Shown here piece after piece: positions 13,812 through 35,225 of a stretch of 64,000 nucleotides of DNA. The notes under the pieces were generated by a model, which ran no database searches, was not told the origin of the DNA, and saw only the letters and a list, made by a program, of their open reading frames with translations. The translations under genes were made by a program, and so were the position numbers. Location: assembly GCA_015178975.1 (NCBI GenBank), contig WHVD01000006.1:992001-1056000 (forward strand), read 5' to 3'. The DNA is from Hysterangium stoloniferum. Taxonomy: Eukaryota; Basidiomycota; Agaricomycetes; Hysterangiales; Hysterangiaceae. Every line of letters begins with the position of its first letter. Position 1 is the stretch's first letter.

Positions 13812-15622
13812 ACGTCTAGGAAAATACTAATAGGATTCGGAATTGATGTTGATGCTGTCGCTGGATGGTAAAAATATTTCCTTTGACTTTCTTGAGTCAA
13901 GCGTCTTGAGTTAGCCTGGCTCATATGGCGAAATTGCTCAGGGAGTATTTGCAAACGAAGTTGGTGTACCTCGTTTCCTGAAGCTATTGGCAACGTATGA
14001 CATCAAGGCCACATGGTTCATACCAGGTAATAATGGCCTTGGGAATACTATTTCACCAACTTCAGGAATAATGTATTAAGTGTGTAACCTTAGGACATAG
14101 CTTAGAAACTTTCCCAGAGCAGATCGCCGCCGGGCACGAAATGTATGTCCGGAGAAAATTCAATTCTGCCAGCTCCCAATCGCTAACTATAATCTGGCAC
14201 TCAAACAAGAGGTCTTAATGGCTATTCTCATGAGATAAATAGACGCATGTAGACTCTCAAGAGGGCCCCGAGAGCTAAAATATTTATCCAGAACCCTACT
14301 GCGATGACTACTGAGCAACATAAGGAGATACTTGATTGATCACACGTTCCAACTCCTGACAGATTTCTATCATGGCACCTCCCCCAAAGGGAGCGTTGCT
14401 CCCTAGTGGAAAACAAGCAAAGAGGGGACGCTGCTTCTGTTAGAGAAGGGGACTGAATACGGTACTGGCCTTAGTATCATATTTTGTCCCGCTTTACGAC
14501 TCACCCGCATGACTTAGATCATTCGAATATTGCCCATGACTGTCAAATAAATACATCTTGGATAATTCCTTGTCATTGAATAACGCAGCTCACCCGCATG
14601 ACTTAGATCATTCAAATATTGCCCATGACTGTCAAATAAATACATCTTGGATAATTCCTTGTCATTGAATAACGCAGCTCCTGTAGGCCTATTATTTGAG
14701 GGACCAAGATACTTGGAAAAGATCTCCTACGACCAGAAACCAGATACTTGGATGAAACCACTAATTCGTGGTTAAGAGACCAGACTTATTGAAACACTTG
14801 CCAATTGGTCCTTAGAAGACATGACACCTATGATGTTCGTCGTACCATGGGACAAAATGATACTGCGATACACTGATCTCATAAATTATCCTCCTAGGTT
14901 CATCAAGAATTTCGAAAACTCTCATGGATCATCAGGAAAGTGGGAAGATCAGTAAGTATGTCGTCTATATTGTCTAGAGCCATCTAGGAGAGCTAGCTCG
15001 GCTCACACTACTTTCGCGAGATGCCTATTTACTAGTCGGTATAAAGGCTTACTATAGATCTAGGGAGGCTAGGGAAGTTAGGGAGTCTATATAATGGGTG
15101 TAGACATTCCCAAATCCCTGATGATGGGTATGCAAGGTTATCACGTCATTTGCTTCACATGCTCACTTCTCGCCTCAAGGTTAATACGCGCGATGTGGAG
15201 CAAATATGGAAGGATACCTTCACGTACTGTTATCGGTGTGAGACATAATTTCGTCGTTTAATTAATTATACCGATGATTAGGATTCAAAGCGAGGAGAAA
15301 GGCTTATTATATTACCTTACTTATTTAATATTGATGCAAGCCTACCTCATTATCAGACTTCAATTTTCCCATCACGATACATCCAGATGTCAGTGGGTAT
15401 GTAGATTTATCCATACACCATGGCGTTTTTTGACTTCGTATCCCTCAGGCGTCCTCGTGTCCTGTTAATGTTGGTAAGTGAACGACACCTCATGGCAATG
15501 GTCTTTTATGACTTTGGAATAGGAATCGTTCATTGAATGGGTCAACACACACGAAGTAGGGAGTTTAGGCGCAAGAATGGGCCTGTATCGGGTGCACGCA
15601 TGCCGAAGCGTTATGATCTGAA
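13812..15622 (+). pseudogene. Polysaccharide deacetylase pseudogene (copy A)
   Basis: A broken copy of the deacetylase gene that follows at 16066. The same exon order can be traced by translation. Lesions seen: the start ATG is ACG (812-814 of this kilobase pair range, i.e. 13812-13814); the first splice no longer keeps frame; a TTGATTGAT 4-bp duplication at 14332-14340 shifts frame after EQHKEILD; a Trp codon is TAG at 14404-14406; the HSNIAHDCQ exon is duplicated in tandem; a base is missing after [11 protein letters not shown]; the last exon has lost about 30 nt. An extra ~190 bases sit where the live copy has a 49-nt intron. Clearly non-functional; the parent is a tandem duplication with copy B. 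Confidence 0.88.
14500..14677 (+). repeat. 89-bp tandem duplication inside the pseudogene
   Basis: Two adjacent 89-bp copies (14500-14588 and 14589-14677) differ at a single base (g at 14524, a at 14613). Each copy carries the small exon encoding HSNIAHDCQ and part of the flanking introns. The near identity shows that the duplication is recent compared with the divergence from the live gene. Confidence 0.92.
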
Positions 15623-18983: not shown

Positions 18984-20881
18984 TCAAGCATACACGATCC
19001 GTGCCACACGCAACTTCTGTAGTCGTCTCCGTGCTATCAAGGAATGGTTATTGAAGTTCTGGAAGGCCCAAGTCGCATCTTTCCAAATAAAATCCTCCCC
19101 TATTCCGCGCAATGAGTGTTTCCCCAGAATTGTGGCCCCTCCAGGCTAAAGAGTGGTATAAAGAAATTAGTGTATGTTCTTGAAATAAGCTATGGAAATG
19201 CTCACGTGATCTTTTACATACGATGTTACATCCACTAAAAAGTCATCCACAACTAATAAGCATAGTTTTCCGTGACTTTCTACGTATTTTTGCACTTGAG
19301 TACGTTCCCAAACCGGACCATTCCAGGCCCGTGCTTCCTCTTCATCAGTTGACATGGTATCCTGTCTATGATGGTGTTGAGAATTCGCATGCTTGCGCTT
19401 CATGTATTCCATTGCAAACTGGACATCATCTTCTGGGGCTCGCCTGAGACGGTCAGCTAACTTTAAATGGCAAAGAAAATTTATAAGCCATTTTGAAGGG
19501 TCCCAATCCAGCAGGGCAGGTCCGCATCGAAAGTCATATGGAAAGGCATGCTGTCGACATATCAGACAAGTGGCGTCGAAATAAGGGTAAAATTACGTGC
19601 TGTGATGAAATTAGCTTTTGGATACCCATACGAAAATCGCACGACGTACGAAGTTGTGGTTTGCCTCTCCACATGTCCATAAGGCCATTATCTGGATGGC
19701 AGGGCTCCAATAAGCCACCATTAATGCGTGACGTGGACTTACAAAGTTTCCTCGAGCACTCATTTCGTCTGAAAAGTCTTGCAGACCTTCCCAGTGCGCG
19801 AGCCTGATAGTTAAGGAAAGGAAAGAATTGTCGAAAGCGAGATTCATTGATACTTACGAGTTCACCAAAAAGGTACAGTGCCATGCTAAGCAGAATATTA
19901 AGAGTGAAATTGATTACACGCGTGAAGGGACTGACTAAGAATCCTGGCAACTAGACCTGCCCATATAAATGCTCCAGATACATCTCCCCATAGTAACCCA
20001 ATTAGGGTGGGTGTTGCGAGGCCAAATGTTAAGGCCAAGGGTACTGTTAAATAATATCATCTTTAGGGACGGTCACGACTCATCGTGCGTACCATAATAT
20101 TTGTGTTGGAATCTCACGACTACATATATTTGTCAGAGCCACGGAGAAGCCATTCAAATAATTATGAGGTTAATGACCTGGATCCCTTTCCAAGTCAGTT
20201 TTGTCAATCGAGTCCATTCGCGTGTATGAAGGTTTATAAAATATCCACCCCATGTGGGAGAAGAAAAGGCCCCGAGTAGCTGAATAACTAGTACCTGGGT
20301 AAGCACTCTGAAAAGGAGAATTGACCGCTTCAACTTACGGGTCGTGTATGGGATCATCGGTAAACCTCTACAAGTCTAGCCATCTGCAAACAGTCTAGGG
20401 GAAACACTAATGATTACGCACATGATGCAGTCTATGCCTAAGGCACCACCACTGTAAGGATTAGGAGATTAGCCTGCCACATAGGTATTTGTTCAGCCTA
20501 GGGTCACCTTTATAGAACCTTGAAATGCCATTGAACCCAAAATGGCTAATACTATTCTGACACCAAAGGTCGCCCTGAAGGAACGATGGGAATAAAGACG
20601 GTGATATCCTATAGTGATACTAGATAATGAAATATAAGACTAAGCTGCTTGCCACGTCTTGGCTCGGGTACACACCCGAAACAAGAAAGCTGCCACAAAG
20701 CAAACGCCAAGAAGAGAGATTTTGTAGGAGTTGAGCTAAACGGAGAAACATATAGAACTGCGTAGAGCGCTACAGCATGCATCGTGAAGAAGAACATTGC
20801 GTTTGACCACCATATTGGAGTTTCTGATCGCGGCGGCTTCGAGGTTCGATCGGGATGAGTGCAGGGATGAGTGCAAGACAT
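18984..20881 (-). CDS. Delta-9 acyl-CoA desaturase with cytochrome b5 domain (copy 1)
   Basis: OLE1-type stearoyl-CoA desaturase; introduces a double bond into acyl-CoA at the ER, using its own fused cytochrome b5. Exons (complement): 20676-20881, 20508-20619, 20422-20451, 20339-20367, 20178-20287, 20093-20119, 19936-20043, 19858-19885, 19743-19803, 19650-19691, 19597-19599, 19206-19550, 18984-19145; 1263 nt, 420 aa. His boxes: HRLYSH, HRLHH and HNFHH. The fourth position of HNFHH comes from a 3-nt exon (19597-19599, CAC) between introns of 50 and 46 nt. The b5 domain has the usual HPGG, split by an intron, and a second His in FNNHS. Downstream of the b5 domain the protein ends quickly. Exon sizes match copy 2 almost one for one. 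Confidence 0.9.
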
Positions 20882-28821: not shown

Positions 28822-30868
28822 ATGTCTTCCTCTATCGTGGAAGTCCAGACGTCTGCCAGTGTTCAGCCTCCTTCGAATTCCTCTTCTCCATCTACGAAAT
28901 TACCTCACAATACGACAACGGATGTAAACAAATCCGAAACTCTGCCCTCAGCTCCGATACACTGGGGAAATACTATAACTTTCCTGGGAGGGCATATTAT
29001 AGGGATTTATGGGGCTTTGTTCATATCACCTATCACAACGACTCCAAAGGCAACTTTAATCCTTACCTTGGTTTTGTATTACTTTGTTGGCACGAGGTCT
29101 GTCCCAACAAATCCAACAACTTTCTCCGTAATTGATATGTTCCTCTAGCATAGGGATCGGCTACCATCGTTTATATTCTCACCGCTCATTTGAGGCTACG
29201 AAGCCCTTGAAAATATTCATCGCCCTCGTGAGCCCAATGGGATGGCAGCGGTCCATTTTGGTACGAGTTATTGAGATTATATGGGATTGCCACTGCTCAT
29301 CAAATTATTGCTAGTGGTGGTCCGTGTTTTAGTTACCGTATGGTGTTGCATAGCACTGAATTGTGATTATAAAAGGTCTGTTAGACACAGACTACACCAT
29401 GTGAGTATTATGTCCTCGTATTGACCACGATGTTGGGTATGCTCATGTAATGTCCTATTCTCTATAGAGATTTACAGATGATTTGATCAACGACCCGTGA
29501 GCCATTTATTCTGATCAATTTGATTTCAGGACATCACTCCTTTTCTAACATATGGCAATAAGATATTCCGCCGCTAGAGGATTATACTTCTCACATGTCG
29601 GATGGTTGTTCAGAAGACCTTTCTACCCACGGATGTCTTCAATTGATATAAGTGACCTGATGAATGATCCAGGTCCGTACACGGAACATACAATTTCCTC
29701 AGTACATTAACATTTCGTATTCCATCGACAGTGGTAACTTTCCAGCACAGACATTATCGTATGTCCTTTGTAAGGATCATGTCAGATCGCTAATATGCTT
29801 TGTAGAAAAACTAGCCCTTGTCAATGGGCTTTTTATCCCCCCTTTGATCGCTTGGACTTGGGGAGATGCCTTGGGTGGATTTATTTGGGGCTCTATGGTC
29901 TGCAAAATTATGTGTGAGTATTTTATATATATAGGAAGTCATTCCATTGTCCAACTTTGCACAGTATGGCACGGTGTTTTCTTTGTTAATTCGTATGTAG
30001 AAATTTATGTACCTCGAATCGTTGGTGTGCTAATAGGTTGGAAATAGACTTGCCCATTGGAAAGGTTTTCGGCGATATTCCGACGAAGTCAGTGCCAGGG
30101 CCAACCTCGTGAGTCCATCCCTTCCCTTTTCAATTCGTCGGCATTCATATCCCACAGTTCGTCTCCATTACTGCTGGTGGGGAAGGGAACCACAACTATG
30201 TAAGTCAGCAGTTTTACGCATCCAGTCCCTCAGTAATTCTAATCACCCTTATTAAAGCATGTATGAATGCTCTCCTTTCACGCAGAGTTACAATGGCTCA
30301 TTCTATAATAGCACGCCTTCCCACAAGACTTCCGTAATGGTCGCGATTGGCATGATTGGGACCCCTCTAAATGGGCGATTTTCTTCCTTTATAAGGTGGG
30401 ACTGGTAAAATCTCTCAAGCGTGCTCCCGACGAGGATGTGGAATTCGCCATGGACTATATGCGGCGCAAGAAAGGGGGAGTCCATCATAACGGTGAACCT
30501 TACTCGGTGGACAAGCAAGAGAAAGAGTTTGGAGAATGGACAGGTCCTGTATGGAGTCGCATCAAAGCTGAAGAACATGTTAAGCAAGCACGCGGCAAAT
30601 GTTTCGTATTCGTCAACGATTATTTGGTGGATGTCACAGTCTTCATGAAGGAACATGTGAGATCATTTTTTATTTGTTAAACGACTCGTGTAACCTGCAT
30701 ATTTAGGTGGGAGGCGCAAAGATCCTTCGCACCTACTCCATTCGGGGCGAGGGCGAGGATTTCAACTTCCAAGACGTCACCTGGGCCTTCCAGAGCTTTA
30801 ACAATCATACCAGAATCGCACGAAAGCGAATGCGAGATCTAGCTGTCGCCAAGGTTCTTTCTGTATGA
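28822..30868 (+). CDS. Delta-9 acyl-CoA desaturase with cytochrome b5 domain (copy 2)
   Basis: Paralogue of the desaturase at 18984-20881. Exons: 28822-29096, 29149-29260, 29315-29319, 29376-29400, 29468-29496, 29563-29672, 29732-29758, 29806-29913, 29965-29992, 30048-30108, 30158-30199, 30258-30260, 30312-30656, 30707-30868; 1332 nt, 443 aa, all phases consistent. His boxes HRLYSH, HRLHH and HNYHH. As in copy 1, one His of box 3 comes from a 3-nt exon (30258-30260, CAT) between introns of 58 and 51 nt. A 5-nt exon (29315-29319) and a 25-nt exon replace the single 30-nt exon of copy 1. The b5 heme motif reads HVGG instead of HPGG. Its 3' end was copied to 33.9-35.2 kb. Confidence 0.88.
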
Positions 30869-33932: not shown

Positions 33933-34411
33933 ATCAAGGCTCACTCTACAATAGCACGCCTTCCCACAAGACTTCCGCAGTGGTCGCGATTGGAATGATT
34001 GGGACCCCTTTAAATGGGCGATTTTCTTCCTTTATAAGGTGGGACTGGTAAAATCTCTCAAGCGTGCTCCCGACGAGGATGTGGAATTCGCCATGGACTA
34101 TATGCGGCGCAAGAAAGGGGGAGTCCATCATGACGGTGAACCTTATTCGGTGGACAAGCAAGAGAAAGAGTTTGGAGAATGGACCGGTCCTGTATGGAGT
34201 CGCATCAAAGCTGAAGAACATGTTAAGCAAGCATGCGGCAAATGTTTCGTATTCGTCAACGATTATTTGGTGGATGTCACAGCCTTCATGAAGGAACATG
34301 TGAGATCGTTTTTTATTTGTTAAACGATTCGTGTAACCTGCATATCTAGGTGGGAGGCGCAAAGATCCTTCGCACCTACTCCATTCGGGGCGAGGGCGAG
34401 GATTTCAACTT
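33933..34411 (+). pseudogene. Desaturase 3' fragment A
   Basis: Nearly identical to the 3' part of desaturase copy 2. It starts in the intron just after the 3-nt exon, contains the full 345-nt exon (33955-34299; HAFPQDF to MKEH), the intron, and the start of the last exon up to GEDFNF. It then joins fragment B. It lacks all upstream exons, so two His boxes are missing. Confidence 0.85.
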
Positions 34412-35225
34412 TGGTAAAATCTCTCAAGCGTGCTCCCGACTCGGATGTGGAATTCGCCATGGACTATATGCGGCGCAAGAAAGGGGGAGTCCATCATGAC
34501 GGTGAACCTTACTCAGTGGACAAGCAAGAGAAAGAGTTTGGAGAATGGACCGGTCCTGTATGGAGTCGCATCAAAGCTGAAGAACATGTTAAGCAGGCGC
34601 GCGGCAAATGTTTCGTATTCGTCAACGATTATTTGGTGGATGTCACAGTCTTCATGAAGGAACATGTGAGATCGTTTTTTATTTGTTAAACGACTCGTGT
34701 AACCTGCATATTTAGGTGGGAGGCGCAAAGATCCTTCGCACCTACTCCATTCGGGGCGAGGGAGGATTTCAACTTCCAAGACGTCACCTGGGCCTTCCAG
34801 AGCTTTAACAATCATACCAGAATCGCACGAAAGTGAATGCGAGATCTAGCTGTCGCCAAAGTTCTTTCTGTATGAGTCCTTCGACAGGCATAGTTCATAA
34901 TTAGAATAGACACCAGTTTCTTTCAAAAGAGCCGGTGGTCGAGATTGGTCTGGCTATTATGCGTTTATACCACTAGTTATCGCACGTGAAGATACTTACT
35001 AGATTCTTCCACAAGATCAGAGTTAGTGTGGATTGAGATAACGAGGAGAAGCGGGGCAACCAGATAATTATTCTTTTGTGCCTAAGAAAGAGACGCTCTG
35101 GACGAGCTTACATAAATACATGATCATCAAATCCTAAAATGGCCGACGTCCCCGTTATTGAAACTGCACATATACTTACAATCCACCCTGTCCAGATGTT
35201 TGATAACTAAAGGAAATGTACTTGG
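34412..35225 (+). pseudogene. Desaturase 3' fragment B plus 3' flank
   Basis: A second copy begins inside the 345-nt exon at LVKSLKRAP. It contains the following intron and the whole last exon, which has a 3-bp deletion in the GEGED region and changed residues such as APDSDVEF. About 350 bases of the 3' flank of copy 2 follow, with an ~85-base insertion near 35000-35090. Not translatable as a desaturase. Confidence 0.82.

Follow-up and report, generated by a model that had tools for sequence, protein, structure and literature searches.

Does this fungal desaturase gene carry one of its metal-binding histidines on an exon of only three bases, and, if so, is that exon simply included during splicing or does it act as a switch on enzyme activity? 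We addressed these questions in a 64,000-nt stretch of Hysterangium stoloniferum DNA (the window).

The desaturase gene and its third histidine box

The gene in question (copy 1; 18984..20881, minus strand) was modelled with 13 exons and encodes a 420-aa protein with an FA_desaturase domain and a C-terminal Cyt-b5 domain (Pfam, 2.3e-14 and 2.3e-05, respectively). The model was assembled by hand and by script, taking as start codon the first in-frame ATG, picked by eye; it has GT-AG at all borders and a frame open to the stop. Among PDB desaturases the protein matched 4zyo (E 2.7e-42) and 4ymk (E 6.3e-41), and an NCBIfam scan returned only a match to DesA family desaturases, far under cut-off (55.3 vs 400 bits). 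Judged by its sequence, copy 1 is of the stearoyl-CoA-desaturase type, with delta-9 desaturation of acyl-CoA predicted from similarity only. It differs from 4zyo and 4ymk in its C-terminal cytochrome b5 domain, a feature that yeast Ole1 has. In the SCD1 structure, the two neighbouring histidines of the third box are both metal ligands. The HxxxxH, HxxHH and HxxHH boxes of copy 1 read HRLYSH, HRLHH and HNFHH and align with HRLWSH, HRAHH and HNYHH of 4zyo, with HNYHH opposite HNFHH; passages of PMC10240347 give these same three motifs for animal SCD and have the conserved histidines taking part in the di-metal centre.

The third box of copy 1 is complete only with a modelled 3-nt exon, CAC, encoding one histidine (exon 11 of 13; 19597..19599, minus strand). 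Upstream lies modelled exon 10 (19650..19691, minus strand, 42 nt; IMALWTCGEANHNF), which ends …AACCACAACTTC at 19650; downstream, modelled exon 12 (19206..19550, minus strand, 345 nt; HAFPYDFR… to VKDH) begins CATGCCTTTCC at 19550. The initial annotation had placed a CACAG|CAC|GTAATT context at 19597-19599, and the minus strand does read TTC|gtacgt…cacag|CAC|gtaatt…gacag|CATGCC. Its further claim, that joining 19650 straight to 19550 leaves HNFH-AFP, one histidine short, was reproduced from the sequence: the direct join encodes NHNFHAFP, and inclusion of CAC gives NHNFHHAFP. A by-eye search of copy 1 found no single-intron splice choice that yields HNFHH.

The CAC exon is a single phase-0 codon between two introns, both of which have a GT, a branch-point-like motif and an AG of their own. 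Intron 10 (19600..19649, minus strand, 50 nt) runs GTACGT…CACAG (GTACGT…CATCACAG) and contains CTAAT; intron 11 (19551..19596, minus strand, 46 nt) runs GTAATT…GACAG (GTAATT…GTCGACAG) and contains CTGAT, the A of either motif standing 11 nt before the 3′ end. Both splice forms of copy 1, with or without CAC, are in frame to the identical stop.

Paralogues, exon layout and a second tiny exon

A whole-genome search with the spliced copy 1 protein gave 20 matches, assigned to five genes: copy 1, paralogues A and B, a partial copy C and a more distant OLE1-like gene on contig C87. When the HNFHH stretch of A served as the query instead, each of these genes was hit once, for five matches in all; both searches score only the best candidates, so five genes is a minimum that more distant copies may raise. 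Pfam FA_desaturase matched eight times in the genome, other desaturase-like loci among them, and a scan of IMG/VR viral contigs found no relatives. Hydrophobins gave 18 matches at E<=0.001, in keeping with a filamentous and, more speculatively, a mushroom-forming fungus. Paralogue A lies on contig C511 at 954.9-956.8 kb, ~35 kb before the window; paralogue B (28999..30868, plus strand) was modelled with 14 exons from inside exon 1 to the stop, its N-terminus lying farther upstream. Copy 1, A and B all sit on one contig of one genome, and the models of both A and B begin inside exon 1. All three models score above the Pfam cut-off for FA_desaturase and contain the three histidine boxes and NSLAH.

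At the place matching the CAC of copy 1, both paralogues have a 3-nt exon reading CAT, a synonymous difference. In paralogue A (C511:956165-956167) the context is …CATAATTTT|gtaggc…tctccag|CAT|gtgagg…tatccag|CACGCATTTCCC; in paralogue B (30258..30260, plus strand) it is …CACAACTAT|gtaagt…ttaaag|CAT|gtatga…ataatag|CACGCCTTCCC. The flanking introns measure 50/46 nt in copy 1, 58/49 nt in A and 58/51 nt in B, so that exon size and GT-AG borders alike are those of a micro-exon, for which the available text of PMC11121469 gives limits of 3-30 nt, or up to 36. Retention of either or both of these introns leads to an early stop in every one of the three models. The OLE1-like gene encodes the same stretch uninterrupted in one open frame (GEGYHNFHHQFPMDYRN, HNFHHQFP).

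Partial copy C (about 33.9-34.9 kb, 33938-34996, plus strand) resembles paralogue B and is apparently an incomplete gene. Its similarity to B starts within the second of the two introns flanking the 3-nt exon, and it repeats its own 3′ part at a spacing of 366 nt; the two-intron pattern is absent from it, which, as copy C is without the relevant stretch, says nothing on the exon. The B/C duplication and unrelated repeats were the only direct and inverted repeats in the window. At 14500-14677 we also observed a head-to-tail duplication of 89 bp with copies 99% identical. Near its C-terminus (30707-30868, plus strand), the haem-binding motif of paralogue B reads HVGG where HPGG is expected, and the Cyt-b5 domain scores slightly too low for the Pfam cut-off (21.3 vs 23.7 bits); its electron-transfer domain may be altered.

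Eleven exon lengths are equal in the three models (112, 29, 110, 27, 108, 28, 61, 42, 3, 345 and 162 nt), an agreement that is partly by construction, as knowledge of the protein family guided the manual placing of borders, although GT-AG and the frame additionally constrain every border. The paralogues are old: protein identities are 56.2, 51.3 and 50.5%, dN values 0.34, 0.39 and 0.41, and dS by NG86 was not computable (returned -1), which we read as saturation. Against single-base shuffles of introns trimmed at both ends, the real pairs were equalled or bettered by 104 (copy 1-A), 25 (copy 1-B) and 262 (A-B) of 300 shuffles for the intron before the 3-nt exon, and by 293, 72 and 169 of 300, in the same order, for the intron after it. 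The flanking introns are thus without clear similarity among the three genes; the copy 1-B comparison of the preceding intron (25/300 shuffles as good) leaves a possible trace of common descent. The exon itself is kept beyond this loss of similarity in 3 of the 3 paralogues that are complete over the stretch and have introns there.

A second tiny exon lies ahead of the second histidine box. Paralogues A (C511:955237-955241) and B (29315..29319, plus strand) each have a 5-nt exon, TGGTG, which completes WW before that box (before SVRHRLHH in B); the introns on its two sides measure 50 and 62 nt in A, 54 and 56 nt in B. Copy 1 has in its place a 30-nt exon 3 (20422..20451, minus strand; WWCLRHRLHH), equal to the 5-nt and 25-nt exons of A and B together. 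A four-sequence tree, which rests on one split and includes an OLE1-like sequence with one exon junction joined by eye, separated copy 1 and A from B and the OLE1-like gene, with support from 88% of 200 bootstrap replicates. Because the tree groups B with the OLE1-like gene, the simplest reading is that copy 1 lost one intron; the 5-nt exon is then probably ancestral, with the following intron lost in copy 1. Skipping the 5-nt exon would break the frame, and because it cannot be skipped in frame the tiny exons look less like a set of switches. This suggests that they arise incidentally where introns crowd into conserved motifs, a view similar to that taken of P450 motifs in passages of PMC12940212.

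A probable included exon and rival readings

We consider it very probable, on comparison of these genes, that CAC is a genuine and normally included 3-nt exon with two ordinary short introns around it, and that it predates the duplications of copy 1, A and B. The initial annotation had called introns of 50 and 46 nt normal size here, and they are: the 38 modelled introns of the three genes span 46-67 nt, and those that flank the 3-nt exon, six in all, 46-58 nt. Those six contain CTAAT, CTGAT, CTCAT or CTCAC with the A 11-15 nt before the 3′ end, on a simple home-made branch-point score under which most short introns have a motif of this kind.

Chance accounts poorly for the arrangement. In each of the three gaps, just one AG-NNN-GT site divides the interval into introns that are both 40 nt or longer. 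Of 20,000 dinucleotide shuffles per gap, 41 for copy 1, 10 for A and 151 for B produced an AG|CAY|GT with an intron of 40 nt or more on either side; any AG|NNN|GT turned up in 495, 412 and 1,935 of them. The 64-kb window has two instances of AGCAYGT-N36-62-AGCAYGCNTTYCC, one in copy 1 and one in B, whereas 100 shuffles averaged 0.00. The two-intron pattern was found in 18 of 32 loci, these being stretches that overlap one another around the three genes copy 1, A and B.

Under this reading, splice sites would pair across each intron, making recognition of the exon itself unnecessary; such pairing would suffice because each flanking intron is complete in itself. The two introns would probably be removed successively, since both sites around 3 nt could hardly be bound simultaneously. 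Intron definition and two-step removal of paired ~50-nt introns are described for fungal stwintrons in the available text of PMC5639578. Going by the desaturase family, inclusion would complete the HNFHH box of the di-metal site; comparison of the paralogues suggests an exon older than the duplications that produced them and maintained by selection on the enzyme.

The initial annotation had gone further and proposed that skipping, by removing a catalytic ligand in frame, could switch activity on and off. Conditional skipping would leave the reading frame intact but impair the metal site of the desaturase, an idea we regard as improbable. Skipping does preserve the frame, as had been claimed for copy 1, and does so in all three copies, but the same is true of any 3-nt exon and is no special sign. 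The skipped form would need a single intron of 99, 110 or 112 nt, against 46-67 nt in the 38 modelled introns; the histidine codon is retained in all three copies, and the 5-nt exon of A and B does not lend itself to in-frame skipping. Trichoderma Xlr2 lends the switch some plausibility with a 20-nt micro-exon reported as glucose-dependent, but passages of PMC11121469 describe no reads joining exons 1 and 3, so the precedent is not one of plain skipping. Were regulated skipping to occur after all, which we doubt, one gene would yield both an active HNFHH desaturase and a metal-site-deficient HNFHA form, frame intact; equally doubtfully, the inactive form might compete for membrane partners or mark a regulatory state common to the three paralogues. 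In sum, the part of the annotation concerning completion of the HxxHH box was well supported by two old paralogues, the common exon layout and the unbroken OLE1-like gene, and the on/off switch found no positive evidence.

It is scarcely credible, by comparison, that the 99-112-nt interval is a stwintron, two nested introns removed in turn, of which nothing is kept, leaving an enzyme that reads HNFHAFP. Passages of PMC5639578 document stwintrons in fungi that measure 99 and 109 nt and consist of ~50-nt introns, and the overall size matches; yet a stwintron here would delete a third-box histidine in all three paralogues with the other boxes kept, would leave CAC or CAT between AG and GT in three of three unexplained, and sits badly with a 5-nt exon that likewise completes a conserved WW. 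Decaying gene copies in which CAC is a coincidence within one long intron deserve next to no credence: partial, internally repeated copy C and the weakened Cyt-b5 region of B (HVGG, sub-threshold match) would fit, but the three models have open frames through 13 or 14 exons, dN is 0.34-0.41 and silent sites have diverged past what NG86 can handle, the histidine boxes are kept in all three, and the shuffle counts make three such chance sites together most unlikely.

Comparison with known micro-exons

The probable 3-nt exon of the desaturases adds to a known kind, as fungal micro-exons of 1-20 nt have been reported before; passages of PMC12940212 also mention Arabidopsis, Drosophila and humans as having exons of 2-5 bp. 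We found no prior report of this desaturase exon in the open-licence literature. One candidate report of micro-exons, PMC4462047, was set aside as 'microexon' there, in the available text, is an aligner setting. The exon suggests that fungal intron-by-intron splicing can carry a catalytic residue on three bases. There is a practical side: gene predictors may label such enzymes defective, and a missed exon would leave an enzyme described without a metal-binding histidine. These genes also allow one to ask directly whether inclusion is the whole story for such exons or whether they serve regulation as well.

Several fungal systems share features with this one, as far as the available text of each source goes. 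P450 genes of Phanerochaete chrysosporium, a white-rot fungus, likewise form a multigene enzyme family in which introns of 45-55 bp are common and very small exons occur, although the shortest exon there is 6 bp and the enzyme family is different (PMC1184071). The 20-nt micro-exon of Trichoderma Xlr2 resembles the desaturase exon in deciding whether a key domain is complete; Xlr2 is a transcription factor whose glucose regulation is reported from RNA data, whereas regulation of the desaturase exon is hypothetical (PMC11121469). Fungal stwintrons also make up ~100 nt of intervening sequence from two ~50-nt introns, but leave nothing behind, whereas the desaturase interval is predicted to leave one codon (PMC5639578).

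CYP621A of Fusarium is similar in more respects, being a fungal enzyme gene in which two introns surround a tiny exon, of 1 nt, inside a conserved motif; there, too, the exon was inferred from related genes and an intronless relative, and automatic annotation copes poorly (PMC12940212). That exon was argued by comparing genes together with RNA reads, and the study drew on 24 genes in many species (PMC12940212), against three genes of one genome at the DNA level here. The 1-nt exon of CYP621A belongs to a codon for glycine in the PKG motif, and the frame is disrupted without it (PMC12940212). The desaturase exon, unlike it, is a whole codon for a metal-box histidine, and its loss keeps the frame. 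What distinguishes the desaturases is an entire exon that consists of one codon, for a predicted catalytic metal-site histidine, and that appears to have outlived the divergence of three paralogues.
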